Shown one piece after another: positions 5,757 through 30,266 of a stretch of 31,559 bases of DNA (position 1 is its first letter; every line of letters begins with the position of its first letter). The translations under genes were made by a program, and so were the position numbers. This DNA comes from Deltaproteobacteria bacterium. Its GTDB lineage: Bacteria; Desulfobacterota; Desulfobacteria; Desulfobacterales; B30-G6. The stretch spans positions 1 through 31,559 of the forward strand of contig QMMS01000014.1 in assembly GCA_003647375.1 (NCBI GenBank), written 5' to 3'. Under the pieces are notes generated by a model. It did not search any database and was not told the DNA's origin. It was given only the letters and a program-made list of their open reading frames with translations.

Positions 5757-5800
5757 ATAAAATCGTTGCACGATTTTATGTGACGCGACGGTGTCGCTAT
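5757..5800 (+). repeat. Double-hairpin repeat element, copy 1
   Basis: Hairpin A is ATAAAATCGT-TGC-ACGATTTTAT (5757-5779), a perfect 10-bp stem with a 3-base loop. Hairpin B follows at once: GCGAC-GGT-GTCGC (5785-5797), inside GACGCGAC...GTCGCTATT. The same compound occurs at 23072-23121 (same orientation) and 30216-30266 (inverted). Here it lies between the ParB-like gene and tetR, where hairpin A could also serve as a terminator on the minus strand. Confidence 0.75.
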
Positions 5801-5824
5801 TCGGGGGGATGGATTTTCCAGAAG

Positions 5825-6784
5825 TCAGCGGGATTGGAAAATCTTTGTGAGGTGCGGGTTGGTGAGAGTTTTGTTGAGAATATCAATCTGTTCTTTCAAT
5901 TCAGTCTCGTTCTTAAAAGACATACTGAGTTTCAGGGATGTCCCCTCAAAATACTCAGGAGGGAGCAGGCTGATCCTGCTGCCCAGGTTAAGCTTTCTCA
6001 GGTTACGTTGGAATGATTCTTCAGATAGTGAAAGATTCGGGAAACGCCGCCTGCGTAAATTCAACCTCACTGCCCTGGTTTTCTGGAGATTATCCAGGTC
6101 CTTGTCCGCCAGCACCTCCGGGATATCTTCGGACAACAGTATCTCCTGGGTACTACGCTTTTCACGATGGGCGATTTCTTTGAGATGGGAGCAGATTTCC
6201 CTCTGCTTGTTCTGGTTTAGCTTTAGTTCCATGAAAACCCTGGTCAACAGGTTCCCTGTAAAAGAATCAAATCCTTGGAGTTCGACAGCCATATTCAAGG
6301 ATATTCTGTTCTGGTAAATCCCCGCCTGAGTCAGGTGGGGGAGCCGACAGATCCCAATGATTTTTTCAATGAGATGATGGTTTCCGGGTAATCCGAGATT
6401 TTGTGCCTCTGCATACAAGCGTTCCCGGTCTTTCATGCACTTATCCAGCAGTGCCAGCGCACGGGAGATCTCCAGGAGATCAAGTTTCCTTTGTGAAATG
6501 TTGTCGGTGATGGCGATCCGAATGCATTCGAGGGATAAACTTTCTGCCGGCATCACCTTGACTGGAATCTGCCGATAATCCAGTTTCTGCATGGCCGCAA
6601 TACGACGAAACCCTGCAACAATGATATATCGGTCCTGTTTTCGGAGAAGGACAGGCGGGTTGATCAGGCCGACGTGTTGTATGGATTTAATGAGGTCTTC
6701 AACGGCTGCCGACGTGGTAATTCTGTAGGTGTCATCTTCTAAAGCAATGACGGTCAGATCCAGAGCCGTCATCCTATAGGACAT
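5825..6784 (-). CDS. Orphan ParB/Spo0J-like protein
   Basis: A 319-residue protein with a ParB N-terminal fold. It has [10 protein letters not shown] then [13 protein letters not shown] (GFRR at about 58-61, matching the GERR/C-motif region that binds CTP in ParB), and [18 protein letters not shown] (about 93-110), matching the ENxQR-type motif. A helix-turn-helix-like region follows at about 138-175. There is no ParA partner and no obvious parS-like 16-bp palindrome nearby, so classical chromosome partitioning is unlikely to be its role here. It overlaps the end of purC by 11 bases, implying translational coupling. The substitution of Phe for Glu in GERR may affect nucleotide handling. It could be a DNA-binding regulator or a CTP switch of the Noc type. 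Its role is unknown. Confidence 0.8.
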
Positions 6785-7670
6785 CGTCTCTACCCGTCAG
6801 CTGGGTTAAAGCCTCCTTGTATTTCTGGTAGGTTTTCCGGACAACGGTATCCGGAAGCGGTGGAGGGGGCGGCTCCTTGTTCCACTCGATGGCACTCAGG
6901 TAGTCTCTCAAGTATTGTTTATCAAAGCTTTTCTGTGGGCCCCCTGGGGCATAGGTCCCCTTGGGCCAGAATCTGGAAGAATCCGGCGTGAGAACTTCAT
7001 CGATGAGGATGATTTCATTCTCTATTATCCCGAATTCAAATTTCGTGTCGGCGATGATAATCTCTTTCTGATCAGATATTTCAGCACCCTTGTTATATAT
7101 TGACAGGCTTAGACGCTTGACTTCCTCGGCAACCTCTTTTCCGACCATCCGAGCAGCTTCATCAAAATCGATATTCATATCATGGAGACCAATTTCTGCT
7201 TTGGTGGATGGTGTAAATATGGGTTCGGGAAGCTTGTCTGATTCCTTGAGTCCGTCCGGCAGACCTATACCGCAGACACTTCGGGTTTCCTGATAAGATT
7301 TCCAGCCGGAGCCGGAAATATAGCCCCTGACAACACATTCGATGGACAGGGGTTCTGTTTTCCGAACCAGCATGCTTCTGCCGTGCAGTTTTTCGGCATA
7401 GGGCCTGCAGACAGCAGGGTACTCAGCGACATCACTTGAGATAACATGATTGGGCACCAGAGACTTCATGGCATCAAACCAGAACAGAGATATCTGGGTA
7501 AGAATAATGCCTTTTCCAGGAACCGGGTCGTTCATGATAACATCAAATGCGGATATCCTGTCTGTTGCAACCATCAATAAGGCATCATCCAGATCATATA
7601 CATCACGCACTTTACCCCTTTTCAGCAATTTCAAATCTTTAAAGTCGGTTTCCAGAACGGGTTGATTCAT
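6774..7670 (-). CDS. purC: Phosphoribosylaminoimidazole-succinocarboxamide synthase (SAICAR synthetase)
   Basis: Catalyses the ATP-dependent joining of aspartate to CAIR in de novo purine synthesis. At 298 residues it is of the long (yeast/deltaproteobacterial-like) type. Recognisable features are [13 protein letters not shown] with the phosphate-binding lysine, [51 protein letters not shown] and [23 protein letters not shown] stretch lies near the C-terminus. The ATG at 7668-7670 is preferred, with GAAAGG 10 bases upstream; a TTG six codons earlier is possible. It sits alone among signalling genes with no other pur gene nearby, and the next gene starts inside its 3' end. Confidence 0.95.
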
Positions 7671-7684
7671 ACTTGCAATGCCTT

Positions 7685-8026
7685 TCAATTATTGAATGCT
7701 TCGATAAATTTGAGCAGAATCATCCGCTCCTTATCATCGATTTGTGAAAACTGAATACCAGCCTCATAAATATCTTTGGCGCTTTCCTTCAGGAAAACGA
7801 CCTTCCCTTCAATATCGACGAGTTCTTCTTCGATGCCGATAGTTATTGAAATACGCGTCCGGGGTTCAATGGGTTTGTGGGTCTCGAGCAATATGCCGGA
7901 TTCAGACACATTGAGCGTTCTACCCATACCCTGCTGACATGGCTCACCGTCTTCACCCATGCCGACAAAATTCAGAAGATTCGTCGATTCTACCCGTATG
8001 TGCCTTCGTTTATCACTGCCATTCAT
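7685..8026 (-). CDS. PilZ-domain protein, candidate c-di-GMP receptor
   Basis: A 113-residue single-domain protein. The two c-di-GMP-binding signatures of PilZ are present: RRHIR (RxxxR, residues 7-11) and NVSESG (D/NxSxxG, residues 39-44), followed by the beta-barrel and a C-terminal helix with [19 protein letters not shown]. It should bind cyclic di-GMP and pass the signal to a partner. The ATG at 8024-8026 has AGGTGG 5 bases upstream and is preferred over the in-frame GTG nine bases earlier. It lies 30 bases after the cyclic-nucleotide-binding gene and 14 bases before purC. The co-transcribed GTPase and the distant pilus ATPase are possible partners (inference). Confidence 0.88.
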
Positions 8027-8056
8027 CCTGTCCACCTGTCGTTGGGATGATTCTGC

Positions 8057-9226
8057 CTATGTCATCAATTCTTTCTGCCGATTGTTCAGTACCTTTGTTG
8101 AATAATGGGTGCATGTCGCGATATTATCGATAAAGTTCTTGAACGTGGTGGAAATATTGTCGTATTCTTGTTGAAGGATATCCGGGTTCAGTGTCTGAAT
8201 TTTCAGGTCTTTCGAGGCCAGTACAGAGGCAAATTCAGGTTCATGACCAAGGTCTAAAAATGGAATATAACCAAAAAAATCGTCACGTTCCAGGTGTGCC
8301 AAGGGCACAAAACCATCATCGGTTTTCTGAACCAGAGATGCCTTGCCATGTTGGACCCGGAATAAGCGTTTCTCATCATCGCCCTGCTCGATCACCTTCT
8401 GGCTATACCTTAGATAGTCGTCAAGATCTATCTGCTTTGTTGAATACTCCACCACACGATCTGTGACGTGACGCAATCTCCTGTCCAGGCTCATGACAAA
8501 GGCCTTGAACTCGTATGACATTTTCGAATATTCCTGGGCAAGCCGTTGCGAATCGAGAACACCCAGCTGAACATCTCCCACAGCCTTGGCGGAATACATC
8601 CGCGAATGATTTCGGACCAGGAAAGAGGATATACTGCCGACAAAAGAGCCGTTCCCTATCTGAAAAAGTGTCAAGGGTTCTGAAGTGGTTTCCCTGATGA
8701 TATCAATGACTCCTTCGAGAACCACCCATACCCAGTTGCCGTGTCTGCCCTCTTGCAGTATGGTGTCACCGTCGTGAAATTCTTCTTCATCTACAACATA
8801 CATATAATCGACCAAAGGGCCCCAAATAACCGGAAGTGCTGCACCAGCATCAGAATACTTGGCAGTTCGGCTATCCATGGAGACCGGCCCCAGTCTTTCG
8901 GTCCGGCCTTCGTCCAGCATCTTCAGACCATCCAGAATAATCCCCATGCGCCCCTTGGTGATGACCCTTTCACTCGTGACGCTTGTCGTTGTAAACTCAA
9001 AGTCACCATCTGTCCAGCCAAACAGCGAATAAAGAGCATCCAGCCCCGAAAGCATGCCGCAGGAAGCATTGATTGGATTGCCGTTGTCAAAATAGATAAT
9101 GCCGGGTTCGGGCGCATATGGACTCATGATCCGCAAGATACCTGAACTGCCATTGCCCCCCAGAAGTTGCATGAGGTCGCCAAGATTGAGAAATTTAATG
9201 TTTCCCTGTAGTATGTCTTCTTTCAT
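8057..9226 (-). CDS. PATAN (DUF4388)-like protein with two cyclic-nucleotide-binding folds
   Basis: A 389-residue soluble protein. Residues 1-100 look like a PATAN/DUF4388 domain (QGNIKFLNLGDLMQLLG, GIIYFDNGNPINA, GLDALYSLFGW.DGDFEF), a module tied to small GTPases and response regulators. Residues about 145-250 form a cyclic-nucleotide-binding fold (DGDTILQEGRHGNWVWVVLEG) and about 270-360 a second, more divergent one (RLFRVQHGKASLVQ, FFGYIPFL). Neither carries the canonical FGE...R.A cassette (here FVGS and FFGY), so binding of cAMP or cGMP is uncertain. There is no C-terminal helix-turn-helix, so it is not a CRP-type transcription factor. It starts 7 bases after the MglA-like GTPase gene, with its Shine-Dalgarno region in that gene's stop, so it is probably a partner or regulator of the GTPase. 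Confidence 0.8.
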   Translation of the reverse strand: MKEDILQGNIKFLNLGDLMQLLGGNGSSGILRIMSPYAPEPGIIYFDNGNPINASCGMLSGLDALYSLFGWTDGDFEFTTTSVTSERVITKGRMGIILDGLKMLDEGRTERLGPVSMDSRTAKYSDAGAALPVIWGPLVDYMYVVDEEEFHDGDTILQEGRHGNWVWVVLEGVIDIIRETTSEPLTLFQIGNGSFVGSISSFLVRNHSRMYSAKAVGDVQLGVLDSQRLAQEYSKMSYEFKAFVMSLDRRLRHVTDRVVEYSTKQIDLDDYLRYSQKVIEQGDDEKRLFRVQHGKASLVQKTDDGFVPLAHLERDDFFGYIPFLDLGHEPEFASVLASKDLKIQTLNPDILQQEYDNISTTFKNFIDNIATCTHYSTKVLNNRQKELMT

Positions 9227-9233
9227 CCGATGC

Positions 9234-9848
9234 CTACTCAGCCCATTGTAATTCTCGTTGCAAAGCCTTTAATGTCAGTTGGACGCACTCCTTCAGCGCA
9301 TCACCGACCCCGGTACCCTTGGTGGCGCTACCCGGAAAAGCGGGCGCCTTTAACTGGCGATTGAGGTCTTTCTCCATTTTCTCAACAGACATCAATGGAA
9401 TGCCTTCATCAGCCAGATCCCTTTTATTGTATTGAAGCACCAGCGGTATCTTGAAGATATTCAGGCCGTACTCCTTTAAATTCTTCTGAAGGTCTTTCAG
9501 GGACAGCATATTTTTTTCTCGCCTCACCTCAAGAGAATCAGCCACAAAAACAATGCCATCGACACCCCTGAGAACAAGTTTACGGGTCGCACTGTATTGC
9601 ACCTGCCCCGGCACCGTGTACAGCTGCACCTTGATATCACAACCCCTGATCTTTCCTAACCCCATGGGAAGGAAATCAAAAAAGAGCGTTCGGTCACCTT
9701 CCGTGTTTATGGAAACCATCTCACCGGTTATCTGTTTTGAATAACTCTTGAATATATATTCCAGATTTGTGGTTTTCCCACCACGGCCCGGGCCGTAATA
9801 GACAATCTTACATTCGATCTCTCGTTTTTTCAGGTTAAATATTGCCAT
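9234..9848 (-). CDS. mglA: MglA-like small Ras-family GTPase
   Basis: A 204-residue GTPase closely resembling Myxococcus MglA in length and motifs: REIECKIVYYGPGRGGKTTN with the P-loop GPGRGGKT (19-26), GDRTLFFDFLPMGLG (51-65), LYTVPGQVQYSATRKLVLRGVDGIVFVADS with the G3 motif TVPGQ (78-82), NKRDL (G4, 141-145) and SATKG (G5, 174-178). In the family the GTP-bound form marks the leading cell pole and controls gliding or type IV pilus placement. No MglB (Roadblock) GAP gene is adjacent; a PATAN/cyclic-nucleotide protein occupies the partner position. CTGGAG lies about 11 bases before the ATG. Assignment to the family is firm, but the exact role is inferred. Confidence 0.92.
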   Translation of the reverse strand: MAIFNLKKREIECKIVYYGPGRGGKTTNLEYIFKSYSKQITGEMVSINTEGDRTLFFDFLPMGLGKIRGCDIKVQLYTVPGQVQYSATRKLVLRGVDGIVFVADSLEVRREKNMLSLKDLQKNLKEYGLNIFKIPLVLQYNKRDLADEGIPLMSVEKMEKDLNRQLKAPAFPGSATKGTGVGDALKECVQLTLKALQRELQWAE

Positions 9849-9871
9849 GCGGCACGACTCCAGGTGAAGAA

Positions 9872-9894
9872 ATAAAATCGCATAACGATTTTAT
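9872..9894. repeat. Degenerate hairpin A of the double-hairpin family
   Basis: ATAAAATCG-CATAA-CGATTTTAT, a 9-bp stem, followed by a decayed remnant of hairpin B (GAAACACGAC). It lies in the 110-base gap between the TPR gene and the GTPase gene. A run of nine T residues on the plus strand at 9952-9960 overlaps the TPR gene stop codon. Confidence 0.55.
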
Positions 9895-9958
9895 GAAACA
9901 CGACAGAAATTCTAATTCAACATATCATAATCAACTGTTACCCAAAAGCTCTTTTTTT

Positions 9959-10867
9959 TTATTTGCTTGTGATCTTTATATCAAGACAAAAATCTCCCTG
10001 CTTGGGCCCGGATTTAATTTGTGATTTAGCGGATACAATACCGGATCCGTTGAACATGGCTATGGGAGAATAAAACTGAAGATCTTTTAATGCATCACCC
10101 TCTTGCATCGGTTCAATGGTTTTGGCGTCATTTTTGGAGATTATCAGACTGAGCATATTGCCTGATTGAAAGTTTACGTCAAATTCAACAACCTTGCCTT
10201 TTGCCGGCCCGAAATTAAAATAGATGCCAATAGAACTGATGTCGATAAAGTCTTCCTCTTCCTCAGGTTCCTGAACCGGTTCTTCTTTTATCGAAACGGA
10301 GGTGAGATCTCTCTGGATTCCTTTACTTTTCAGTATTTCCACAAGGAAAAGTCGGACTTTTTCTAACTGAACGGGCAGAAAGTCTCCTTTGCTTACCCAG
10401 TCTTCATATTGATCTGCGGCCGCATCTTCAGAGTTGAGCTGGATGTGGCATCGCAATACATTCTTAGCAGCCACCACCCGGTGTGATTCTTTGTCGATAA
10501 GCTTGTTAAATTCACCCAAGGCTCGTTCAAACTGCCCGAATTTTGCAAGAGCGATGGCCCCTTCCAAAACCGCTTCCTCTTTGCTGTCCGACTTTGAGAA
10601 TGAAAACAGATTCTGGATAAGGTCCTGAGCTTTTTCTGAAAGTTCGGGTGACAACGGTCCTTTTTCTACGCGTTGAGTGTCTGAATCCAATAGACGGATC
10701 TTCTTCGCGATGCCTTTAAGAACCTTTTCCTTGTTCTGAATTCTGTCATTCTCTCGAATCTTTTGCTCAGCTTCAGTGTATTTACCTCTTGCTTCGTCAA
10801 GCAGGCCATGCTTTTTGTAAAGATCAGCCTCCCGCAGCAGCTCCTTGATGGATTCCTTTATTCCCAT
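9959..10867 (-). CDS. TPR-like protein with acidic linker and beta-rich C-terminal domain
   Basis: A 302-residue soluble protein that I do not recognise by name. The N-terminal ~190 residues are helical and TPR-like (ADLYKKHGLLDEARGKYTEAE, GAIALAKFGQFERALGEFNKL, AKNVLRCHIQLN). An acidic linker follows (EPVQEPEEEEDFIDISS), then a ~95-residue beta-rich C-terminal domain (KGKVVEFDVNFQSGNMLSLII...FCLDIKITSK) that is reminiscent of PilZ/YcgR-N-like barrels but lacks clear c-di-GMP motifs. The ATG at 10865-10867 has GAGGGA 5 bases upstream; an ATG four codons earlier has none. It heads the GTPase cluster, so a scaffold role in that module is plausible. Confidence 0.7.
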   Translation of the reverse strand: MGIKESIKELLREADLYKKHGLLDEARGKYTEAEQKIRENDRIQNKEKVLKGIAKKIRLLDSDTQRVEKGPLSPELSEKAQDLIQNLFSFSKSDSKEEAVLEGAIALAKFGQFERALGEFNKLIDKESHRVVAAKNVLRCHIQLNSEDAAADQYEDWVSKGDFLPVQLEKVRLFLVEILKSKGIQRDLTSVSIKEEPVQEPEEEEDFIDISSIGIYFNFGPAKGKVVEFDVNFQSGNMLSLIISKNDAKTIEPMQEGDALKDLQFYSPIAMFNGSGIVSAKSQIKSGPKQGDFCLDIKITSK

Positions 10868-11176
10868 TACTTCCCTCATTGCAGTCTGGAGACGTATAGG
10901 CTGTAGGCTATTAGACTGTTAGGTCGCTAACGGCCCAATAGTCTACAGTTTAACATTCTTCTGTATTCTGATTTCTGTCTCCTGTATTTCCTGATTCATA
11001 TACTTTATGATAAAATATAGTGCAACCCAGAGCCGGTACCGCTGAATCTGGGTATCTCTGCCCGTTCCTGGCAGGATCTTTCTGTTTCTCTAACTCGCAA
11101 TCTAACTCTTTATCCTGTTTTCATATAAAATGTCAATAATTGAACTATATATAAATATATTGACCCTAAAGTGAGC

Positions 11177-11253
11177 GTTTCAAATTTTAAGAATATGGAT
11201 TTTAGAAATAATTTCAAAGGATTTGATTCATTTAAATTCTTAAACTTTGAAAC
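11177..11253. repeat. Long inverted repeat upstream of mdh
   Basis: The arm GTTTCAAATTTTAAGAAT (11177-11194) pairs with ATTCTTAAACTTTGAAAC (11236-11253) at 17 of 18 positions, with a 41-base AT-rich interior. It lies in untranslated DNA between the divergently transcribed TPR gene and mdh. The function is unknown. Confidence 0.5.
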
Positions 11254-11406
11254 CCGTTGGGATTGCCGATCTTACCACATCTACGGCGTCAGATGCCATC
11301 CCGCATAGTTCACTATTCGGTCTTCGCTCTTCGAGCTACGCCCAGACAAGAGCGGAACAGCATCTTCCTTGTAGCTACGGCAACCTCGACAATTGCTCAA
11401 TTTAGG

Positions 11407-11434
11407 TTGACATCAATATCGTGTGTGCTATCAA
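11407..11434 (+). promoter_or_regulatory. Candidate sigma-70 promoter of mdh
   Basis: A perfect TTGACA (11407-11412), a 16-base spacer, and TATCAA (11429-11434) preceded by TGC, giving an extended -10 element. It lies about 60 bases before the mdh start, so the transcript would begin near the hairpin at 11433-11459. Confidence 0.5.
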
Positions 11435-11459
11435 ATAAATTTGCTTAGCAAATTTATTT
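11433..11459 (+). repeat. Hairpin in the mdh leader, related to hairpin A
   Basis: A perfect 12-bp stem, AAATAAATTTGC-TTA-GCAAATTTATTT. The flanking TATCAAATAAATTTGC resembles GTCAAATAAAATTGC at 30239-30253, so it is probably a diverged copy of hairpin A. It overlaps the predicted -10 region and would form at the 5' end of the mdh mRNA. Confidence 0.5.
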
Positions 11460-11469
11460 TCAGGTTTGA

Positions 11470-12426
<957 letters not shown>

Positions 12427-12441
12427 GCATAGCAAAGCCCC

Positions 12442-12470
12442 GTCATGCCGGACTTGATCCGGCATCCAGT
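12442..12470. repeat. Palindromic repeat GTCATGCCGGA...TCCGGCATCCAG
   Basis: ATGCCGGA-CTTGA-TCCGGCAT within GTCATGCCGGACTTGATCC and GGCATCCAG, a short REP-like palindrome known from many proteobacterial intergenic regions. It lies 15 bases after the mdh stop and is followed by CTCTTTTCT, so it may act as the mdh terminator. Its six-frame translation gives the common spurious GCRIKSGMT peptide. Confidence 0.65.
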
Positions 12471-12520
12471 CTCTTTTCTAGATAAGATCGCTTGAACATC
12501 GAACATTGAATGTTAATGGT

Positions 12521-12554
12521 CTCGCAAAAAGTCAGAAAAGCTACTTTTTACGAG
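12521..12554. repeat. CGTAAAAAGT-family hairpin
   Basis: CTCGCAAAAAGT pairs with ACTTTTTACGAG across a 10-base loop. The right arm is the exact complement of the left arm at 4994-5005. Confidence 0.6.
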
Positions 12555-12565
12555 AGTATTTTGTA

Positions 12566-12647
12566 TTTGGTGTTTAGTGTTTTGGGGTCTAATAGCTTGG
12601 TATATCAGCATTTTTTCCATACTAAATCCAAAATACTAAACACCAAA
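12566..12647. repeat. Word-repeat hairpin TTTGGTGTTTAGT
   Basis: The 20-base arm at 12566-12585 (TTTGGTGTTTAGTG...) pairs with 12628-12647 (...ACTAAACACCAAA) at 19 of 20 positions, with 42 bases between. Confidence 0.6.
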
Positions 12648-12650
12648 CAC

Positions 12651-12682
12651 TTGATGAATTCGACTTTTTACGAATTCATCAA
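12651..12682. repeat. Perfect 12-bp hairpin TTGATGAATTCG
   Basis: TTGATGAATTCG-ACTTTTTA-CGAATTCATCAA. The loop with its flanking bases reads CGACTTTTTACG, which shares its core with the CGTAAAAAGT family. Confidence 0.6.
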
Positions 12683-12839
12683 TGTTAAATGGAAGAGATG
12701 AAGAAACAGACGTAGAACCTGGAAGAAAAGGTTGATCGAGTATTCGGTATTCATTTTATTTCTTTTCATTCATCATTGGACGTTCGATGTTGGATGTTCG
12801 ATGTTCATCTTTGCTCGACCCTCCTACCCTATGCGTTCT

Positions 12840-14669: not shown

Positions 14670-14696
14670 GACTCATTGCCTATAAACAGTACCTAA

Positions 14697-14799
14697 AACT
14701 TTAAAACAGCTCGTTTTAAGTGTTAAGTTTTAGGTTTTAAGATAACACTTTTCTTTATTAATCAGATAGTTAAAACTTAACACCTAAAACCTAAAACTC
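14697..14799. repeat. Word repeat AAGTTTTAGGTTTTA between uvrB and uvrC
   Basis: The words GTGTTAAGTTTTA (14720-14732) and TAAAACTTAACAC (14771-14783) are exact complements, extended by further CCTAAAAC units up to 14798. The block runs into the 3' end of uvrB, and the uvrB stop codon TAG (14791-14793) lies within a CCTAAAAC unit. Confidence 0.65.
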
Positions 14800-16785: not shown

Positions 16786-16791
16786 ATTTTT

Positions 16792-16872
16792 TTGAGTTCG
16801 TTGAGTTCGTTGAGTTCGTTGAGTTCATTGGGTTCGTTGAGTTCATTGGGTTTGTTGTGTTTGTTGGGATAC
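16792..16872. repeat. 9-base tandem repeat TTGAGTTCG upstream of uvrB
   Basis: Nine 9-base units in register: three exact TTGAGTTCG, then TTGAGTTCA, TTGGGTTCG, TTGAGTTCA, TTGGGTTTG, TTGTGTTTG and a decayed TTGGGATAC. The same unit recurs at 28804-28839 with inverted units at 28863-28898. Read on the minus strand it lies just before the uvrB ATG and displaces any Shine-Dalgarno sequence. It translates to Asn-Ser-Thr repeats but is not a gene. Confidence 0.85.
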
Positions 16873-16961: not shown

Positions 16962-17039
16962 CAATCCCAAATGACACAAATTCGAATGATCAAAACACCT
17001 CCCACGGTTAACGTTTTAATCCATTGGCTATGTTTTGGA

Positions 17040-17100
17040 CATTTGAGCATTCGATATTCGGATTTGTTTCGAATTTCGATATTAGAATTTAGAATTTACT
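17040..17100. repeat. Dispersed AAATTCGAA word repeat, inverted copy
   Basis: TTTGAGCATTCGATATTC, GATTTGTTTCGAA and TAGAATTTAGAATTTA match the complement of 153-219 word for word. It lies between cysS and the nested repeat. Confidence 0.6.
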
Positions 17101-18566: not shown

Positions 18567-18600
18567 ATTTCAATATTTACCTTTTGTTATACAATTTATA

Positions 18601-18736
<136 letters not shown>

Positions 18737-19254: not shown

Positions 19255-19434
19255 AAGAAGCAGTAGGGAGTAGGAAGTAGCAAGTATGCAGTAGGAAGTA
19301 AGCAGTAAAGAGCAGCGAACCGCATTCTGTATGCTGTTTACTGATCACTGCCTTCTACATTCTCCCTACTACCTACTCACTGCCTTCTACATACTACCTA
19401 CTACTTACTGCTTACTGCCTACTACTTACTGCCG
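19255..19434. repeat. Word repeat CTACTTACTGC, both orientations
   Basis: Units such as GCAGTAGGAAGTAAGCAG (19255-19320) face inverted units such as CCTACTACTTACTGC (19345-19434), giving a large potential hairpin. It fills almost the whole gap between the adenylate cyclase and ispF and reaches the cyclase stop codon. Confidence 0.75.
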
Positions 19435-20343: not shown

Positions 20344-20376
20344 GCTATCTCCAAATATAGTATGATGAATTTCTCG

Positions 20377-20405
20377 TTTAAAGCAGATCTGATTTCTTTT
20401 TTCAA
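20377..20405 (-). promoter_or_regulatory. Candidate sigma-70 promoter of the adenylate cyclase
   Basis: On the minus strand: TTGAAA (20400-20405), a 17-base spacer and TTTAAA (20377-20382), 33 bases before the start codon. It is a moderate match only. On the plus side an isolated TTGACA (20443-20448) and a very AT-rich tract (20480-20545) probably hold the pilus operon promoter, but I cannot assign its -10 box. Confidence 0.35.
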
Positions 20406-20557
20406 GCATGTTGCGCCTTTTGCCCTGTATGTGTTTTATTTCTTGACAAATATGCCTGTTTATGAGAAACATACTTTGTATATATTTATAGGTAATAGTT
20501 GTATACTTATCGTATATATATATAAAGTTATAACATATCATTAAACGGAGCCCCCCC

Positions 20558-22441: not shown

Positions 22442-22544
22442 AATTATTCTTTCGACCTAAAACCGGGTTTACAGACAAAGTGCCCTTTGAAAATCGCTCA
22501 GTGCTGGTGTAGTTCAAGGGTCTCTATGGATATTGGACAAATCA

Positions 22545-23075
22545 ATGGATAGAAGTAAGCTGCCGACGAAAAATATCTTGTTCATCATTTTATTCGGCGG
22601 AGGAATTCTCCTTTTTGTGCTCCTGTCTATATTTCCCAATTATATTGCTTACAGCAACATTGAAAATGAAATCAATGCGGTCAGGCAACAGATCGAGGAA
22701 CAGAAAATTCTTTCTCCTATTTTTACCGACCTGTCTGATAAAACTAAATTCGAAAACCCTGAAAATCTTCCTTTTCCCAAAAAAGAAAAACTGTCTAAAA
22801 ACGAGACCGGCAACATATCGGCCATCATCCAAGACATCATTCGGCAAAACGATTTTAAGCTCGACAGCATCTTAACCGATGTTGGTGGATTGATGAATGG
22901 TTCCGGGATGCTCGAGATAAGTCTTGAAATGACGGGAGATTTCATTAATCTCCGAAATATGATACTTCAATTCGGGACGCTACCCTATCTTGAGCACATT
23001 GAAACTATCCGAATCGAGAACACCAACAAAAAACAGAAGGTCTCGATGAAACTCTGGATCGCTCAAGAACAATAA
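22545..23075 (+). CDS. pilO: PilO/MshJ-like pilus assembly protein
   Basis: A 176-residue protein: short cytoplasmic tail, one transmembrane helix (ILFIILFGGGILLFVLLSIF), a coiled coil (SNIENEINAVRQQIEEQK) and a periplasmic domain ending in QKVSMKLWIAQEQ. This is the standard PilO architecture, and it pairs with the PilN half of the upstream gene. The ATG at 22545 is preferred; an in-frame TTG four codons earlier is possible, and neither has a strong Shine-Dalgarno sequence. The 103-base gap upstream holds no repeat. The stop codon TAA (23073-23075) lies inside hairpin A of a double-hairpin repeat. Confidence 0.82.
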   Translation: MDRSKLPTKNILFIILFGGGILLFVLLSIFPNYIAYSNIENEINAVRQQIEEQKILSPIFTDLSDKTKFENPENLPFPKKEKLSKNETGNISAIIQDIIRQNDFKLDSILTDVGGLMNGSGMLEISLEMTGDFINLRNMILQFGTLPYLEHIETIRIENTNKKQKVSMKLWIAQEQ

Positions 23076-23121
23076 AATCGTTTCACGATTTTATAGGACG
23101 CGACCTTGTCGCTATTTTGAC
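23072..23121 (+). repeat. Double-hairpin repeat element, copy 2
   Basis: Hairpin A is ATAAAATCGT-TTC-ACGATTTTAT (23072-23094). Hairpin B is GCGAC-CTT-GTCGC (23100-23112), followed by TATTTTGAC. It has the same layout as 5757-5800, with different loops. It begins at the last sense base of pilO and supplies that gene's stop codon. It lies within the pilus operon between pilO and pilP, so it could affect mRNA stability or differential expression. Confidence 0.8.
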
Positions 23122-23155
23122 AAAAATTATAAATATTAGTTTTAACGTTTAAATA

Positions 23156-23187
23156 CAAACACTTGGATTCTTAGATCCTCGGACCTC
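23156..23187. repeat. Short word repeat CACTTGGATTCTTAGATCC
   Basis: ACACTTGGATTCTTAGATCC followed by TCGGACCT closely matches 26991-27017 (ACACTTGAATCCTTGAATCC then TCGACCCCT). Both copies lie in gaps of the pilus operon. Confidence 0.5.
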
Positions 23188-23193
23188 AATATT

Positions 23194-23715
23194 ATGGCGA
23201 ATAGAGAGAAAATCATACTACTGGTGATGATCATCGTTGTCGCTTATGCTGGCTACGCCTATTTTTCTGATTCCGGCGACAACCCTATCGTGGAAGGTTC
23301 TAATCAGAAACTATCGGAAATGAAAAAGTTCGTTGTAGACGCTGCCACGAATTTGTCCAATGAATACATCTCAGCCGCTGATAAATACATCATTGATCAG
23401 GCTGAAAAAGACTGGCCGCAGGACCCTTTCCTGCAATCCGGCGCACGCCTCACATCCGAGCCGTTTGAGGCCCGTGCCGAGGTAACGGTTCAAACCGTTC
23501 AAATATCCTATACCGGATTTTTGCAGACATCCGATACGCTCATCGCCATTGTCAATGGTTCCGAGTATGAAACCGGCGATCAACTGAACGAGACAGGGTA
23601 TTACGTTAAAAAGATATTGCCGACCAAGATAGTCCTGGGGCTTGAGAATAATTCTGACACCACTATCCTTCCCTTAGATGAACCCGTTAACATATCATTG
23701 GAAGAAAAGGAATAA
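23194..23715 (+). CDS. pilP: PilP/MshK-like pilus assembly protein
   Basis: A 173-residue protein with one N-terminal hydrophobic helix (IILLVMIIVVAYAGYAYF), a helical linker and a C-terminal beta domain (ISYTGFLQTSDTLIAIVNGSEYETGD, then YYVKKILPTKIVL), as in PilP, GspC and MshK proteins that connect the inner-membrane complex to the secretin. It lacks the lipobox of classical PilP and is membrane-anchored instead, as in MshK or GspC. The Shine-Dalgarno sequence is poor. It starts 118 bases after pilO and ends 9 bases before the secretin gene. Confidence 0.75.
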   Translation: MANREKIILLVMIIVVAYAGYAYFSDSGDNPIVEGSNQKLSEMKKFVVDAATNLSNEYISAADKYIIDQAEKDWPQDPFLQSGARLTSEPFEARAEVTVQTVQISYTGFLQTSDTLIAIVNGSEYETGDQLNETGYYVKKILPTKIVLGLENNSDTTILPLDEPVNISLEEKE

Positions 23716-23724
23716 GCTGTCAAA

Positions 23725-25323
23725 ATGAAAAGACAAATCACATATTCGCGTATCGTCCGATGGATGCTTTCCGTCTTTTTCCTGCTTTCTCTACTTTCCG
23801 GTTGTGCGAACAAGCAGGATGAAGTAGAAGCCGATCAGTTTTTCAAACAATGGAAAACGACTGCTGAAAAATCCAAAGGCTATTCCCCCCAGTCAAGAAG
23901 GCGCACCATCAAGCTGCCACCGCGTGTATTGACCGTCAAAGAAGCGGAAAAGCAGAAAAGCGACAAACCGCTTCCAACCAAAAAAATTACCATGCGCATG
24001 CACGAAACCGATGTAACGGTACTTCTCAGAGCTTTGACACGCGCAGTCGGTTTGAATTTAATCCTCAATGAAAATGTAAAAGGAACCGTCAACATCGATA
24101 TAAAAGATGCTTCATGGGACCAGGTTTTTGTGAGCATCCTCAATACCCAGGGCCTCTCTTATGCCTGGGATGGGGATATCATCCGTATTGTGACGCATGA
24201 AGATATCAACAGGGACCTGGAACGGTTGACCACCGAACAAAAAATCAAGACCCAGAAAAAAGATGTGGAACTGGTGGAACCATTGATTACCCAGGTTGTT
24301 GCAGTTGAATTTTCCGATGCCAAGAAACTCCAGGAAAACCTTTCCATGTTCCTGTCCCAAAACGAGAAAGACCAACCCATCGGTTCCGTCATGGTGGATG
24401 AACATACCAATTCTCTCATCATTCAGGCAATTTATAGTGATCTGGAAAGAATGCTCCCACTGATCCTCAAGCTCGATAAACCAACGCCTCAAATCCTGAT
24501 TGAAGCGCATATTGTCGAGGCGTCAAAAAAAGTCGCCATGGAACTGGGGGTACAGTGGGGCGGTCTCTATAACAGCGGTGATCTTTGGATCACACCCGGT
24601 GCGAATTCATCGGGTGTTCTTGACAATACGCTCTCAGCCGGTGGAATAGACCCCACCTCCGGCAATGTCTTCAATTCGGGTGGATCAGGCGATATACTCG
24701 ACAAAACCAGCGCAACCGGTCTGACACTCGGTTTTGCCCTTGAAGACATAGGCGGCAGCATTCTCGCGGCACAACTCTCGGCACTGCAGGCAGAGGGCAA
24801 ACTCAACATTCTCTCGAGCCCATCCATTACCACCCTGGACAACCAGGAAGCCACCATCGAAAGCGGTACAGAGGTTCCCTACCAGACGGTAGAGGATGAT
24901 GAAGTCAATGTCGAATACAAAGATGCCGTTCTCAGTCTGGTGGTAACCCCCCACGTCATTGGGGGCAATATCCTCAAACTCAATATCAAGACCAAGAAGG
25001 ATGAGCTTGATTTTGCCAATGCAGTCCGTGGGCAACCCGCCATTAACACCAAAAGGGCCAACACCAATGTACTCCTATACGATGGGCAGACCACCGTCAT
25101 CGCCGGCCTCAGCAAGGAAAATTCCAGCAAAGTAAATACCGGTGTGCCATGGCTCAAAGACATCCCGATTCTCGGTTACCTCTTTAAGGGGACGGAAGAC
25201 GAAGACACCTTGGAAGAGCTGCTGATTTTCATTACACCCCATATCCTGGGTGAGCGGTTTGGTGACGATATGGATGAATCTTTAATGGATGATTCGTCAT
25301 CTGAAAGCACGCCCGAATCCTGA
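23725..25323 (+). CDS. mshL: MSHA-type secretin (outer-membrane pilus pore), lipoprotein
   Basis: A 532-residue secretin that should form the outer-membrane channel for the pilus. A signal peptide ends in the lipobox LLSGC (Cys27). An STN/N0 domain follows (about 85-165; MRMHETDVTVLLRALTRAVGLNLIL), then one N1-type domain (VVAVEFSDAKKLQENL, VDEHTNSLIIQA), then the secretin core with VEASKKVAMELGVQWGG, LSSPSITTLDNQEATIESG, TVIAGL and the signature VPWLKDIPILGYLFKG...EELLIFITPHI. The short N-region and the pre-secretin layout match MshL more than long PilQ with AMIN domains. AAGGAATAAG lies upstream of the ATG. Confidence 0.92.
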   Translation: MKRQITYSRIVRWMLSVFFLLSLLSGCANKQDEVEADQFFKQWKTTAEKSKGYSPQSRRRTIKLPPRVLTVKEAEKQKSDKPLPTKKITMRMHETDVTVLLRALTRAVGLNLILNENVKGTVNIDIKDASWDQVFVSILNTQGLSYAWDGDIIRIVTHEDINRDLERLTTEQKIKTQKKDVELVEPLITQVVAVEFSDAKKLQENLSMFLSQNEKDQPIGSVMVDEHTNSLIIQAIYSDLERMLPLILKLDKPTPQILIEAHIVEASKKVAMELGVQWGGLYNSGDLWITPGANSSGVLDNTLSAGGIDPTSGNVFNSGGSGDILDKTSATGLTLGFALEDIGGSILAAQLSALQAEGKLNILSSPSITTLDNQEATIESGTEVPYQTVEDDEVNVEYKDAVLSLVVTPHVIGGNILKLNIKTKKDELDFANAVRGQPAINTKRANTNVLLYDGQTTVIAGLSKENSSKVNTGVPWLKDIPILGYLFKGTEDEDTLEELLIFITPHILGERFGDDMDESLMDDSSSESTPES

Positions 25324-25330
25324 TAAGAAA

Positions 25331-26998
25331 ATGGATTATTTCAGTATTCTGAATCTAAATAAAGAACCCTTTTCCAATTCTCCGGATCCGGATTACTTTT
25401 TCAAATCCCAGCAACATGTCAGCTGCCTTCAGAAATTAGAATTGTCCTTGCGGCTCAGACGGGGGTTGAATGTGGTCGTCGGTGAAGTTGGGACGGGGAA
25501 AACGACGCTCTGCCGCCAGCTGCTGCGACGATTTTCCGATGACACCGATATCGAGTCGCACCTTATCCTGGATCCCTATTTCAGTACGCCCCACGAGTTC
25601 CTGCTTGCTGTGACGGAAATGCTCACCAATGAAAAGTACCCCGAAAATATCGATGACTACAAACTGAAAGAGCACATCAAACATGCGCTTTTCACAAAAG
25701 GTGTTGATGAAAACAAGACCGTTATCCTCATCATCGATGAAGGCCAGAAAATTCCGGTTTTCTGTCTCGAGTTACTGAGAGAGTTTCTCAATTTTGAAAC
25801 AAACGATTATAAGCTACTTCAAATCGCAATATTTGCCCAGAGAGAATTCGACAACATACTCAAGCAGCATGCCAATTTTGCCGACCGGATAAACCTGTAC
25901 CACCTGTTGAAACCCATGAATTTTCGCGATACGCGCTCCATGATCCAGTATCGTCTGAACCAGTCGAGCGCGGCTGCAAAACGACTGGCATTGTTCACCT
26001 ACCCTGCCCTCTGGGCTATTTACCGGTCCACAAACGGCTATCCACGTAAAATCGTCAACGTCTGCCACCGCAGCATTCTGACGATGATCATACAGAACAA
26101 AAGCAAGGCCAACTGGTTTTTGGTGCAATCATGTATCCGAAGGGTCTTTTCTTCAGGGAAAAAGCGGCCATGGCAATTTGCAGCCATTCTCCTGATCGTT
26201 TTTGTCGGTATCGTTTTCGCCATTCCGAAATGGCTTCCGGACCAAACCACAATACCCGTAGCCAAAAAAACCGATGCAGCAAAAGAGAAGCATACCACGA
26301 CCATCGGCCCCATACCAATCGCACCCGTGACAAGCGATGACGCAGAGACTATCGTAACGACCAAAGGCAACACATCCCCGGAAACGAAAGCGCCCATCCC
26401 GACAGACAAGACAGGCCTTTCAGTGGACACCCCCGATTCTCCGGACAAAGCCCAGCTACAGTCTTCTGCAATCGCCCAGGCAGCAACAAGTCCCGGGATG
26501 CACGAAGTTCCTGACGTACTAGGACAAATGAAAGTCAAACGAAATGAAACCCTCGGCGGACTTATCCAGACAATTTATGGTGTTTTCAACAAAACCCATC
26601 TTCAATCAGTGCTCCGGATCAACCCGCACATAACGGATCCGAACACCATCAGCGTCGGTGAAGTTATACTTTTCCCGGCAATTGCATCCCGTGCGAAACT
26701 TCAGTCATTGAAACGATGGTGGGTTCAAATTGCCGAAGAAGATAACCTGGAAGCCGCATTCCGATTTCTACGACCAGGGACCGCCACCGCTCTTCCCGCA
26801 CACCTGATTCCATATTGGAGCCCCTCATCCGGTCTTCATTTTTCAGTGCTTCTGGGACAACCTTTTTATGATGAGGCTTCGGCTGTCAATAAACTTGAAC
26901 TTCTTCAGTTGAGGGACGGTGCAAAAGGTAAAGTTGTTTCTGAATGGGATGCACATACGGTTTTTTACGCAAATCCTTACCAATACACTAACACTTGA
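25331..26998 (+). CDS. ExeA/MshM-like AAA ATPase with transmembrane helix and LysM-like tail
   Basis: A 555-residue inner-membrane protein. Residues 1-270 are an ExeA/GspA/MshM-type AAA ATPase: DYFSILNLNKEPFSNSPDP, Walker A GEVGTGKTT (51-59), Walker B VILIIDEGQ (about 131-139) and a C-terminal lid helix bundle. A transmembrane helix follows (FAAILLIVFVGIVFAI, about 281-300), then a Thr/Pro-rich periplasmic linker (about 305-395), a LysM-like peptidoglycan-binding domain (VKRNETLGGLIQTIYG...PNTISVGEVILFP, about 405-455), and a ~80-residue C-terminal domain that could be SPOR-like. In the family it opens or binds peptidoglycan for secretin assembly. The ATG lies 7 bases after the secretin stop. 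The stop codon TGA falls within a word repeat. Confidence 0.85.
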   Translation: MDYFSILNLNKEPFSNSPDPDYFFKSQQHVSCLQKLELSLRLRRGLNVVVGEVGTGKTTLCRQLLRRFSDDTDIESHLILDPYFSTPHEFLLAVTEMLTNEKYPENIDDYKLKEHIKHALFTKGVDENKTVILIIDEGQKIPVFCLELLREFLNFETNDYKLLQIAIFAQREFDNILKQHANFADRINLYHLLKPMNFRDTRSMIQYRLNQSSAAAKRLALFTYPALWAIYRSTNGYPRKIVNVCHRSILTMIIQNKSKANWFLVQSCIRRVFSSGKKRPWQFAAILLIVFVGIVFAIPKWLPDQTTIPVAKKTDAAKEKHTTTIGPIPIAPVTSDDAETIVTTKGNTSPETKAPIPTDKTGLSVDTPDSPDKAQLQSSAIAQAATSPGMHEVPDVLGQMKVKRNETLGGLIQTIYGVFNKTHLQSVLRINPHITDPNTISVGEVILFPAIASRAKLQSLKRWWVQIAEEDNLEAAFRFLRPGTATALPAHLIPYWSPSSGLHFSVLLGQPFYDEASAVNKLELLQLRDGAKGKVVSEWDAHTVFYANPYQYTNT

Positions 26999-27022
26999 AT
27001 CCTTGAATCCTCGACCCCTGGA
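26990..27022. repeat. Short word repeat ACACTTGAATCCTTGAATCC
   Basis: Second copy of the family seen at 23156-23187. It contains the TGA stop codon of the AAA ATPase gene (26996-26998). Confidence 0.5.
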
Positions 27023-27027
27023 ACCCT

Positions 27028-27049
27028 TTCTCCCAACGAATTGGGAGAA
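27028..27049 (+). repeat. Small hairpin before the mshE-like gene
   Basis: TTCTCCCAA-CGAA-TTGGGAGAA, a 9-bp stem with a tetraloop, 32 bases before the GTG start. No T-run follows, so it is more likely an mRNA processing or stability hairpin than a terminator. Confidence 0.5.
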
Positions 27050-27081
27050 GAGCCAAAAATATAAAACAGGCGAGACAAACA

Positions 27082-28794
27082 GTGAAAACTAAAAAGAAAT
27101 TTGGAGAAATGCTCATCGAGGCCGGGTTATTGAGCGAGGAACAGCTGAAACAGGCCATCATCGACCACAAGCGGACCAACATGAAACTAGGACAATATCT
27201 TGTTCGTGAGGGAATCGTCAGTGGATCTCAGGTGACCGATATTATATCACAACAGCTGAAAATCAAGAAGTACAACCCCGATGACTACCCCATCGACATC
27301 GAACTCTCCAAGGTGATACCCCTGGAGCTTGCCCAGAAGTATCAATCTGCGCCATTGAGAAAGACCAAATTCCTCCTGACCCTCGCAATGACCGATCCCA
27401 TGGATATTACAGCGCTCGACTCCATCGAGGTCTACACCAACACAGAAGTGGAATCGGTCATCTGCACCTACCAGGAGCTCAACCATTTGATCGGCAGCCT
27501 GTATGGCACTTATTCCGGTATCGATGGAGTTCTCGAAGGCATGCAGGAAATGCAGATTGAAAGAGACGATGATGAAGACAGTTCACGATCAGCTATCGAG
27601 GATATCGAAGTCAGCTCCTTGCAGGACATGGCGGAAGAGGCACCGGTTATCCGTCTTGTCAATTCTATTCTTTCCCAGGCAGTTCGTGAAGGTGCCAGCG
27701 ATGTTCATATCAGTCCGGAAAAAGATTATGTCCAGGTGAGATTTCGTGTTGACGGCAAACTGCATGAACTTCCAGCTCCGCCCAAGACCATGATACTGCT
27801 CATCATCTCACGATTGAAGATTCTTTCCAACATGGACATATCGGTTTCAAGAATTCCCCAGGATGGGCGTTTCACCATCAAAATGGATGATAAAGAGATC
27901 AACATCCGGTCTTCCACCATTCCCACGATCTATGGGGAGAATATGGTCTTGCGACTCCTTGACACAAGCGGCGGCGTTCAATCTCTGGAAGAACTGGGTA
28001 TGTCTAAGGCCGACATCCGCAAACTCGAGCCCATGATCCACAAACCTTATGGCATGATCCTCAGCACCGGACCCACCGGCAGCGGCAAAAGTACAACGCT
28101 CTATTCAATCCTCAAAAGGATTAATCAGCCGGACATCAATATCATCACCATAGAAGACCCGGTTGAATACCGGCTTAACAAGATCAGACAAATCCAGCTC
28201 AACAGGAAAGCCGGAATGACATTTGCGGGAGGGCTTCGCTCAATCATGCGGCAGGATCCTGATGTCATCATGGTCGGCGAAATTCGAGATCCGGAAACCG
28301 CCTCGATTGCCGTTCAGTCTGCGCTTACCGGCCACCGAGTACTTAGCACGGTTCATACAAACGATGCAGCCGGTGCCATCACACGTTTTATTGACATGGG
28401 CATCGAGCCATTTCTCGTTTCATCAGTAATGCTCGTATCCATCGCTCAACGACTCGTCAGAAAGGCTTGCCCTTACTGCAAAAAACCCTATACTCCCCCG
28501 GAGCCTGCATTGGAGTACTGGGGTCTCAACCATGCTGATAATCCGAATTTCATGCAAGGCAACGGATGTTTCAATTGCATGGACAAGGGGTACAAGGGAA
28601 GAACCGGTGTCTATGAAATCCTCTTAATCGACGAAATGGTCCAGGATATGATTCTCAACAGAAAGTCATCGCAGGAAATAGCCCGGGCTGCCGTTCAGAA
28701 AGGAAAGCTGACAACACTCAAAGAGGATGCCGCCAAAAAAATCCTCCAGGGTATTACAACCATCGAGGAAGCAGCATCGGCAGTCATCGTATAA
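27082..28794 (+). CDS. mshE: Pilus extension ATPase of the MshE/PilB/GspE family
   Basis: A 570-residue hexameric ATPase that powers pilus polymerisation. The N-terminal MshEN domain has two 24-residue c-di-GMP-binding motifs in tandem (KFGEMLIEAGLLSEEQLKQA and KLGQYLVREGIVSGSQVTDI); the usual leading Arg of RLG is Lys in both. The catalytic domain has Walker A GPTGSGKST (about 330-338), the Asp box, Walker B VIMVGEIRDPETA and the His box LTGHRVLSTVHTNDAAGAI. Four Cys (CPYC and CFNC, about 461 and 495) form the usual zinc site. The start is GTG with AGGCGAG upstream. It is preceded by a repeat-filled 83-base gap. It should be c-di-GMP responsive if the Lys residues substitute. Confidence 0.94.
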   Translation: MKTKKKFGEMLIEAGLLSEEQLKQAIIDHKRTNMKLGQYLVREGIVSGSQVTDIISQQLKIKKYNPDDYPIDIELSKVIPLELAQKYQSAPLRKTKFLLTLAMTDPMDITALDSIEVYTNTEVESVICTYQELNHLIGSLYGTYSGIDGVLEGMQEMQIERDDDEDSSRSAIEDIEVSSLQDMAEEAPVIRLVNSILSQAVREGASDVHISPEKDYVQVRFRVDGKLHELPAPPKTMILLIISRLKILSNMDISVSRIPQDGRFTIKMDDKEINIRSSTIPTIYGENMVLRLLDTSGGVQSLEELGMSKADIRKLEPMIHKPYGMILSTGPTGSGKSTTLYSILKRINQPDINIITIEDPVEYRLNKIRQIQLNRKAGMTFAGGLRSIMRQDPDVIMVGEIRDPETASIAVQSALTGHRVLSTVHTNDAAGAITRFIDMGIEPFLVSSVMLVSIAQRLVRKACPYCKKPYTPPEPALEYWGLNHADNPNFMQGNGCFNCMDKGYKGRTGVYEILLIDEMVQDMILNRKSSQEIARAAVQKGKLTTLKEDAAKKILQGITTIEEAASAVIV

Positions 28795-28803
28795 CAATGT
28801 TCT

Positions 28804-28898
28804 TTGAGTTTGTTGGGTTCGTTGAGTTCGTTGAGTTTCGGTCTAACGGAATAACGACTCACTGAACACAACAAACACAATAAACGCAACGAACCCAC
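28804..28898. repeat. TTGAGTTCG word repeat between mshE and mshG genes
   Basis: Units TTGAGTTTG, TTGGGTTCG, TTGAGTTCG and TTGAGTTTC (28804-28839) face inverted units with CAACGAACCCA (28863-28898). It belongs to the same family as the array at 16792-16872 but is arranged as an inverted pair that can fold. Confidence 0.7.
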
Positions 28899-28911
28899 TA
28901 CACAGGTTATT

Positions 28912-30132
28912 ATGCCGACATATTCTTACCAGGCCATCAACGAGTCCGGATCCATGGTCACCGGTGAAATCGAAGCCGACTCTACCGACATGGCCAACAA
29001 TATTCTTTCCGCCAGGGGATACCTGCCATCACAGGTAGTTGTAAAGGGCCAGGTGGTATCTAGCGCGTTTGTCAAACGCCTGAAGGAACGTTTTGCGACC
29101 ATCAAACCACCGGAACTGATACTCTTTACCAAGCAGTTCAAGACACTCATTAGAGCGGGTGTGCCAATTTTGAAAATTTTTAAAGTCATCGAAAATCAGA
29201 CCGAGAATATTGCCTTGAAAGATATTATCCTGTCTGTTTCCCAGGATGTGGAGGAAGGCGCCAGTCTGCATGATGCGTTTCGAAAACACCCCAAGGCCTT
29301 TTCACCTCTCTACTGCAGCATGTTGCGCGCTGGAGAAGCCAGTGGCGCATTGCCTGCGATACTGGAAAGGCTGATCTATATCCTCGAACATGAACACAAG
29401 ATAAAGTCCGAGATTCGGGCCGCACTTTCCTATCCTATTATTGTTCTGGCCTTTTTAGGGCTCGCATTTTTTGTTCTTCTGACCTTCGTTATTCCAAAGT
29501 TTGTGGGAATCTTCGAAAGGTCCAACATTGCCCTCCCGATTCCAACGCAAATCTGCATGCTCATGTACCAGTTCCTCGCCAATTACTGGCTGCTCCTGAT
29601 CGCTGTTATCGTTGGCGGCATCATATTCCTTAACTATTATTTAAAAACCGAACAGGGGCTGCTGACAAAAGACACCTTTCTGATGCGCCTTCCCCTGCTG
29701 GGACCGCTTTTCGTAAAAGCGGCCATGGCAAGATTTGCCAGTATTTTCTCTATCCTGCAAGCCAGTGGTGTCCCCGTCCTCGACTGCATCCGTATTTTGA
29801 CGGAAACCATTGGAAATGCAGCTATTTCAAAAGAGTTCGACCTCGTTACGGAACGGCTGGAAGAAGGCCGGGGTCTGGCGGAGCCATTGAAATCCGCCAA
29901 ATATTTTCCACCCATTGTCATTAATATGATTGCCATCGGAGAAGAATCAGACAGTCTCGAAGACATGCTTTCCGAAATTGCGCTTCATTACGATTCTGAA
30001 CTCGAATATGCCATGAAAAAGCTTTCCGAGGCTATCGGGCCCCTACTGACACTCGGCCTTGCCGTTGTTGTAGGCTTTTTTGCCCTCGCCATCTATTTGC
30101 CCATGTGGGATATGACCAAGATGGCGGGCTGA
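28912..30132 (+). CDS. mshG: Pilus inner-membrane platform protein (MshG/PilC/GspF family)
   Basis: A 406-residue polytopic protein on which pilins are assembled. The N-terminal cytoplasmic part starts PTYSYQAINESGSMVTGEIEA, as in the family. Two GspF domains each carry the FTKQF.TL..AGVPIL / MARFASIFSILQASGVPVLDCIR signature, with three hydrophobic segments (about 172-195, 222-243 and 373-395). It ends with the typical PMWDMTKMAG. The start ATG has only a weak AGG (CACAGGTTATT) upstream. It lies 117 bases after the ATPase gene across a repeat. The ATPase-then-platform order matches mshE-mshG. Confidence 0.93.
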   Translation: MPTYSYQAINESGSMVTGEIEADSTDMANNILSARGYLPSQVVVKGQVVSSAFVKRLKERFATIKPPELILFTKQFKTLIRAGVPILKIFKVIENQTENIALKDIILSVSQDVEEGASLHDAFRKHPKAFSPLYCSMLRAGEASGALPAILERLIYILEHEHKIKSEIRAALSYPIIVLAFLGLAFFVLLTFVIPKFVGIFERSNIALPIPTQICMLMYQFLANYWLLLIAVIVGGIIFLNYYLKTEQGLLTKDTFLMRLPLLGPLFVKAAMARFASIFSILQASGVPVLDCIRILTETIGNAAISKEFDLVTERLEEGRGLAEPLKSAKYFPPIVINMIAIGEESDSLEDMLSEIALHYDSELEYAMKKLSEAIGPLLTLGLAVVVGFFALAIYLPMWDMTKMAG

Positions 30133-30215
30133 CGCGGCTCTTAGCTCTTCGCCCTTAGCTATTAGCGTTAAGTACATCGACATTGGGTATTATTTGAGTG
30201 ATTAATATTTTATAA

Positions 30216-30266
30216 GTCAAAATAGCGACGGTAGTCGCGTCAAATAAAATTGCGGAGCAATTTTAT
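30216..30266 (-). repeat. Double-hairpin repeat element, copy 3, inverted
   Basis: GTCAAAATAGCGAC (30216-30229) is the exact complement of GTCGCTATTTTGAC at 23108-23121. Hairpin B here is GCGAC-GGTA-GTCGC (30225-30238). Hairpin A is ATAAAATTGC-GGA-GCAATTTTAT (30244-30266). The loop holds GGAG and the last two stem bases are the AT of the next gene's ATG. Confidence 0.8.

Follow-up and report, generated by a model that had tools for sequence, protein, structure and literature searches.

Stem-loop repeats of bacterial genomes are well described for the GTAG superfamily of repetitive extragenic palindromic sequences (REPs), which form dimers known as bacterial interspersed mosaic elements (BIMEs) or REPINs (PMC3733652, PMC3116915). 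As the main text of PMC3733652 has it, these repeats occur in all divisions of the Proteobacteria, from alpha to epsilon, and their termini often supply the TAG stop codon of a flanking open reading frame (ORF); the CGTC REPs treated there lack linked transposase genes, and that main text holds no word starting with Desulf. Here we describe a repeat of another build, found in a 31,559-nucleotide stretch (the window) of a Deltaproteobacteria bacterium of the Desulfobacterales (assembly GCA_003647375.1, contig QMMS01000014.1), in which each copy joins an A/T-rich hairpin 1 to a G/C-rich hairpin 2. The unit is a high-copy, non-coding, REP-like family of one Desulfobacterota order. Its copies lie at gene borders, and about three in ten of the sampled copies use the stop codon of the upstream gene as the 5' foot of hairpin 1. 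We give roughly even credence to the reading that this family is retained at gene borders for its fold, as RNA or as DNA; our best guess is that its role would lie at mRNA ends.

Like the GTAG REPs, in the account given of them in PMC3733652, the unit forms high-copy, mostly intergenic stem-loops close to gene 3' ends, and many intergenic palindromic copies per genome, the general mark of REPs, were found. A repeat that supplies stop codons is not new in itself, since the termini of GTAG REPs often provide TAG stops. What is unusual here, and sets the unit apart from GTAG REPs as described in that source, is that it holds two unlike hairpins and that the host stop codon lies inside a paired stem, the partner arm of which changes with it. 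A GTAG or GTGG tag was found at the 6-nt hairpin foot, on either strand, in 7 of 197 copies, which does not place the unit among the GTAG REPs. It resembles the CGTC REPs of the same source in having no dedicated linked transposase and in the GTC or GTT that follows hairpin 2 on the reverse strand; CGTC stems are 8-9 bp with loops of 4-5 bases, whereas the stem of hairpin 2 measures 5 bp and its loop is mostly of 3 bases, so that on stem and loop size, the CGTC tag not having been counted, it falls outside that superfamily. ERIC (127 bp) and YPAL (167 bp) are likewise interspersed, intergenic and foldable (PMC2847712, PMC2759123, PMC2267715), but the unit here is shorter than the lengths given in PMC2847712, a separation made by description only. 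Judged by titles and the opening of abstracts, we found no description of such repeats in the Desulfobacterales, which is no proof of their absence in print. The unit adds a REP-like family in the Desulfobacterota.

Pairing kept under changes of sequence

We used an alignment of 76 copies (A4; 6 of 82 sources, L052, L058, L059, L095, L099 and L121, were omitted) to examine the two stems across the family. Paired cells amount to 95.9%, against 35-46% in slid versions, in an alignment that was made by a structure-holding model and therefore favours pairing. Changes on both sides were seen in 13 of 15 pairs (5.9 in shuffles) and in 132 cells (46.4 in shuffles), the covariation score was 0.344 compared with 0.165, and none of 500 shuffles attained these values. 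Hairpin 2 switches between GCGAC/GTCGC and GCGGC/GCCGC, while hairpin 1 is more variable, with an exchanged or lengthened stem in a few copies. The sequence-only reading, an earlier note on the window, had pointed out that stems are kept while loop bases differ; breaks in pairing as common as repairs, an outcome it named as refuting its interpretation, did not occur.

Pairing is kept at orthologous sites as well as between copies. At the site of copy 3 (Table 1), where the start of a regulator gene lies next to pilC, the element is also present in three relatives, G136 (45.8 bits), G052 (31.7 bits) and G101 (18.4 bits), and hairpin 1, with arms chosen by eye, is fully paired in the window (10 of 10 positions) and in G052 (11 of 11), with 10 of 11 positions paired in G136 and 9 of 11 in G101. 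The regulator starts with GTG in G101 and G052 compared with ATG in the window, and the base that pairs with this first letter has changed from T to C; a GGAG overlapping the loop is present in the window as well as in G101 and G052. Another copy stands at the pilC stop in G136 (33.1 bits) and G101 (22.9 bits), and the two versions of its hairpin 2 differ by an exact compensating change, GTGGC/GCCAC and GTGAC/GTCAC; G052 has a remnant there and the window alignment has none. The pilO stop carries the element in the window and in G052 (28.2 bits), and none was seen at that stop in G101. Some copies thus predate the split of these genomes, and others decay.

The sequence-only reading had offered either selection on folding or a REP/BIME-like spread. 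This is partly supported: a structured element with such a spread fits the many copies per genome, the patchy range and the strong compensatory change; selection is not thereby proven, because template-switch repair of palindromes may also yield compensatory change. Under that alternative, template switching during replication corrects imperfect palindromes and stems covary without function, by a mechanism that PMC8794818 describes for RNA hairpins. The exchange or lengthening of entire hairpin-1 stems in a few copies would fit it, but hairpin 2 retains much sequence besides its fold and the stop-codon register described below is left unexplained, and we consider it improbable. A protein operator was also considered and judged unlikely, given that the stems vary in sequence but remain paired.

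An intrinsic transcription terminator, with hairpin 2 followed by a U-tract, would suit the many copies that come after stop codons, and among the 170 of 197 copies that have hairpin 2 in the searched form, 166 have a T directly after it. Only 24 of the 170, however, have TTTT within 12 nt of hairpin 2, and some copies are found in antisense orientation or ahead of start codons, which makes a terminator highly improbable.

Copy number, range and mobility

A pattern scan of genome contigs matched the unit in two metagenome-assembled genomes of Desulfobacterota, Desulfobacterales bacterium isolate MAG8 (G001, contig L001) and Deltaproteobacteria bacterium isolate Ww484 (G002, contig L002). Covariance model R1 gave 66 matches in G001 and 106 in G002 at E ≤ 1, counts that include weak matches and hits in which hairpin 1 is read in reverse. 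The many copies predicted for relatives were thus present at tens per genome, and the opposite outcome, only a few copies, did not occur. With a second model, R2, 24 of the 194 genomes sampled from the order had matches at E ≤ 1e-4, under stricter filters and with 31 candidates scored per genome; 13 of these carriers had at least 15 matches, 11 had 1 to 6, and the other 170 genomes were match-free. A draw from the whole phylum (15 candidates scored per genome) gave 3 genomes with matches out of 395, G002 among them. In G186, which has one main contig, there were 38 matches at E ≤ 0.01, some of them reverse readings. The sampled copies are the best-scoring ones per genome and not a random draw: 102 of 104 R1 matches were used (left out were L062 1409 minus and window 11412 minus), two further ones (window 9835 and L104 8420) were removed for the gene-context count, and a later match set contributed 56 of 94, with L242 added.

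By UvrB identity (a match was found in 177 of the 194 genomes but not in G177), the four top-scoring genomes, G002 (90%), G136 (76%), G101 (75%) and G052 (75%), are all element-rich, and the remaining carriers are interspersed with match-free genomes of similar identity. This patchy range points to loss, transfer or both. Viral contigs gave 10 matches, which we put down to chance since, by eye, hairpin 1 is missing from all of them and a single coding sequence accounts for seven. Rfam at the gathering score had no match in the window, and over 10 element loci its sole match lay away from the element: a cyclic di-GMP-I riboswitch (RF01051, 50.9 bits) at L209 271-359, more than 1 kb from the element in G186.

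The copies in G186 are mostly homologous from element position 1-2 onward, over about 120 to 350 bp, counting only pieces of at least 120 nt among the matches listed. The right parts of these long forms are exchangeable, several copies adjoin 100-N gaps, and an inverted dimer occurs at one place, seen in L199 and L217. In G186 the two hairpins form the left end of a larger mosaic. Of the marks of a miniature inverted-repeat transposable element (terminal inverted repeats, target duplication), we can report that the left edge is sharp in G186; many copies in G177 have a tail of about 30 nt in common.

Genes for Y1 transposases (PF01797, a search in which IS200/IS605 and REP-associated tyrosine transposase (RAYT) types are not told apart) were present in all 13 element-bearing genomes examined. 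The link to a RAYT that had been suggested was not borne out, nor was a RAYT gene flanked by the repeat, as for GTAG REPs, found: in 44 Y1 loci (all 14 from one search and, from another, the 30 for which loci were available, with flanks of about 1.5 kb, less at contig ends) an element match occurred at two, full length in L242 (G101) and hairpin 1 only in L236 (G084), and we estimate both to be chance neighbours. In our favoured reading, copies would have spread by a trans-acting factor, not by a linked Y1 transposase, and after the spread some would have stayed for long.

The stop-codon register

Using our own simple ORF calls, we found 144 of 157 copies outside called genes: 55 lie in sense to both flanking genes and 37 in antisense to both, 25 are in convergent and 14 in divergent gaps, and 13 have no called gene on one side. 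On the hairpin-1 side, 84 copies have a gene in sense orientation, and in 41 of them the stop codon of that gene falls exactly at element positions 3-5. Counted with an open frame of at least 100 codons, 57 of 194 copies have as the 5' foot of hairpin 1 the stop codon of the upstream gene, read in that gene's frame (three of 197 being too near a contig end), while another frame is open in 11. This exact register escaped the sequence-only reading and is a new finding here. Truncation of genes by insertion was rejected as its source, as 6 of 10 element-ended proteins could be judged to have normal C-termini, stopping no more than three residues from where a family match ends, with that match running to the end of the profile or almost so; two others, both LivF-like, carry the same 20-residue extension and two are uninformative. 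Of 10 further element-ended proteins compared with Pfam, two stop where their match stops or directly beside that point, and little can be read from the others.

Another way to obtain such a register is a purely selfish miniature mobile element that inserts beside stop-like triplets, the register following from target choice and the loss of harmful insertions. The inner arm of hairpin 1 (TTAT, CTAT, TCAT) would pair with the target (ATAA, ATAG, ATGA), somewhat as the guides of IS200/IS605 do. The unit shares with the end hairpins of those elements the possibility that an internal guide pairs with a short target at its flank, but in those described in PMC6006769 the guide is located 5' to the foot of the hairpin, whereas the possible target here is the hairpin's own 5' arm. 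Such an element would account for the triplet at positions 3-5, which is TAA, TAG or TGA in 149 of 156 copies, including copies away from genes, and it would fit the patchy range, the mosaic long forms and the inverted dimer in G186. It would also fit the TAG and TGA copies, 10 of 15 of which stand at real stops compared with 46 of 134 TAA copies; by eye, the inner arm is exactly complementary to the triplet's foot in seven of those ten.

The same explanation is at odds with the lack of a linked transposase at the 44 Y1 loci, with the copies kept at orthologous sites and with the fact that no clean empty site was seen. Against it, too, is the excess of copies at true stops. For copies with called genes on both sides (163 of 197), 44 of 163 are at the stop compared with 15.4 expected if all stop-like triplets of the same gap are equivalent; under a stricter null of identical triplets only, 44 of 161 are at the stop versus 22.8 expected. 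Because the stricter null lifts the expectation from 15.4 to 22.8, we lowered our confidence in a kept folded element and raised it for a selfish one, which we nevertheless regard as rather unlikely.

Several further observations weigh against a folded element kept at gene borders, besides the fitting of A4 to the structure. The orientation to neighbouring genes is mixed, as the 55 sense and 37 antisense copies show. Most of the excess at stops comes from G001 (20 versus 6.2 expected) and G002 (14 versus 3.2), and it is absent from G186 (1 versus 0.8) and G177 (1 versus 1.1), the other genomes having too few copies to judge. The regulator-start copy in G101, with its low score, has a partly broken hairpin 2. 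Copies 1 and 2 look decayed in G002 (copy 2, at the pilO stop, by eye), and copy 1 was not found in G136, G052 or G101, where L300-L302 gave background scores only; most copies thus need not be under constraint.

If the element is kept for its fold, we would expect it to act as a folded piece at mRNA ends. Hairpin 1 at a stop codon would form only without a terminating ribosome over its foot, and its formation would thereby be tied to translation termination. Escherichia coli REPs have been reported to hinder exonucleases or slow termination, and hairpin 1 at a stop codon could do the same; REPs near stop codons are said, from work by Liang, Rudd and Deutscher in 2015, to affect translation. 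At a start codon, as with copy 3, the element would act on initiation. A more specific proposal is that the element enters or survives at stop codons since its inner arm pairs with them, arm variants matching TAA, TAG and TGA, so that a hairpin 1 built on the host stop would be a repeat that reads stops by base pairing and a translation-gated hairpin at gene ends; this we put forward as quite unlikely. Together, the stop register and the compensating partner arm make it possible to test clearly whether such repeats owe their retention to an effect on translation termination or mRNA ends, or only look selected, and the orthologously kept copies make part of that test possible from sequence alone.

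The window copies and neighbouring repeats

Table 1. Two-hairpin copies and single hairpins in the window.
Feature	Span	Strand	Unit span	Hairpin 1	Hairpin 2	R1 score (bits)	Context
Copy 1	5756-5804	+	5757-5797	5757-5779	5785-5797	70.1	Gap between TetR-type and ParB-like genes, both minus strand; 77 nt to TetR-type start, about 21 nt to ParB-like ORF end
Copy 2	23071-23119	+	23072-23112	23072-23094	23100-23112	70.7	Foot contains stop codon (23073-23075) of PilO-like ORF 22533-23075
Copy 3	30218-30267	-	30225-30266	30244-30266	30225-30238	63.6	Foot overlaps ATG (30265-30267) of sigma-54 regulator ORF; plus-strand GGAG overlaps hairpin loop
Single hairpin, likely hairpin-1 relative	9872-9894					31.4	Before MglA-like GTPase gene 9234-9848
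Single hairpin, likely hairpin-1 relative	11433-11459					31.2	Before malate dehydrogenase gene 11494-12426

The three two-hairpin units of the window, as first read from the sequence, were confirmed by position and by folding: as single-stranded DNA, copies 1, 2 and 3 fold at -11.8, -11.8 and -11.9 kcal/mol, and none of 200 shuffles per copy folded as well (z -3.97, -4.90 and -4.83). Model R1 was built from 8 copies including these, so their scores of 63.6-70.7 bits are those of training members. Three details given for every copy stood in part. The TATTTTGAC tail is found in two of the three, the copy at 5757 having TATTCGGGG; the tip of hairpin 1 reads CG in two and GC in the third; and a gene boundary is touched at 23072 (stop) and 30266 (start), whereas the copy at 5757 lies within a gap.

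The two single hairpins had been taken for diverged relatives of the unit. Both align to R1 via hairpin 1 only, with no match to hairpin 2, so their kinship with the two-hairpin family is no more than likely. The same hairpin as that at 9872-9894 stands at the orthologous place in G002, and the one at 11433-11459 was not found at its orthologous place there. Window positions 9855-9906, covering the former hairpin and its near flank, are identical in G002 while the region averages about 84% identity, which suggests local constraint on the hairpin before the MglA-like GTPase gene.

Other repeats occur in the window and its relatives. Positions 11164-11416, before the malate dehydrogenase gene, hold another multi-copy repeat with many matches in G001, G002, G136, G101 and G052; its matches fall into two blocks, one near 11243-11307 and the other near 11345-11408, separated by a variable stretch, and it is missing at the same place in G002. 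Positions 1-155 hold a repeat that matches G002 at roughly a dozen or more other places, mostly with 83-98% identity, and a 68-nt inverted pair (152-219 and 17031-17098, 90% complementary) also matches further in that genome. A 54-nt sequence is repeated in both directions at 12759-12812, 18600-18653 and 18677-18730. Tandem 9-base units (TTCGTTGAG and variants) fill parts of two gaps, at 16788-16861 and 28800-28846, and similar stretches match in G002. Finally, a G/C-rich hairpin type, CCCCGCAGC-AA-GCTGCGGGG, stands beside several elements in G002 and G186 (L018 near 1440, L163 and the G186 loci) and may be a second repeat family.

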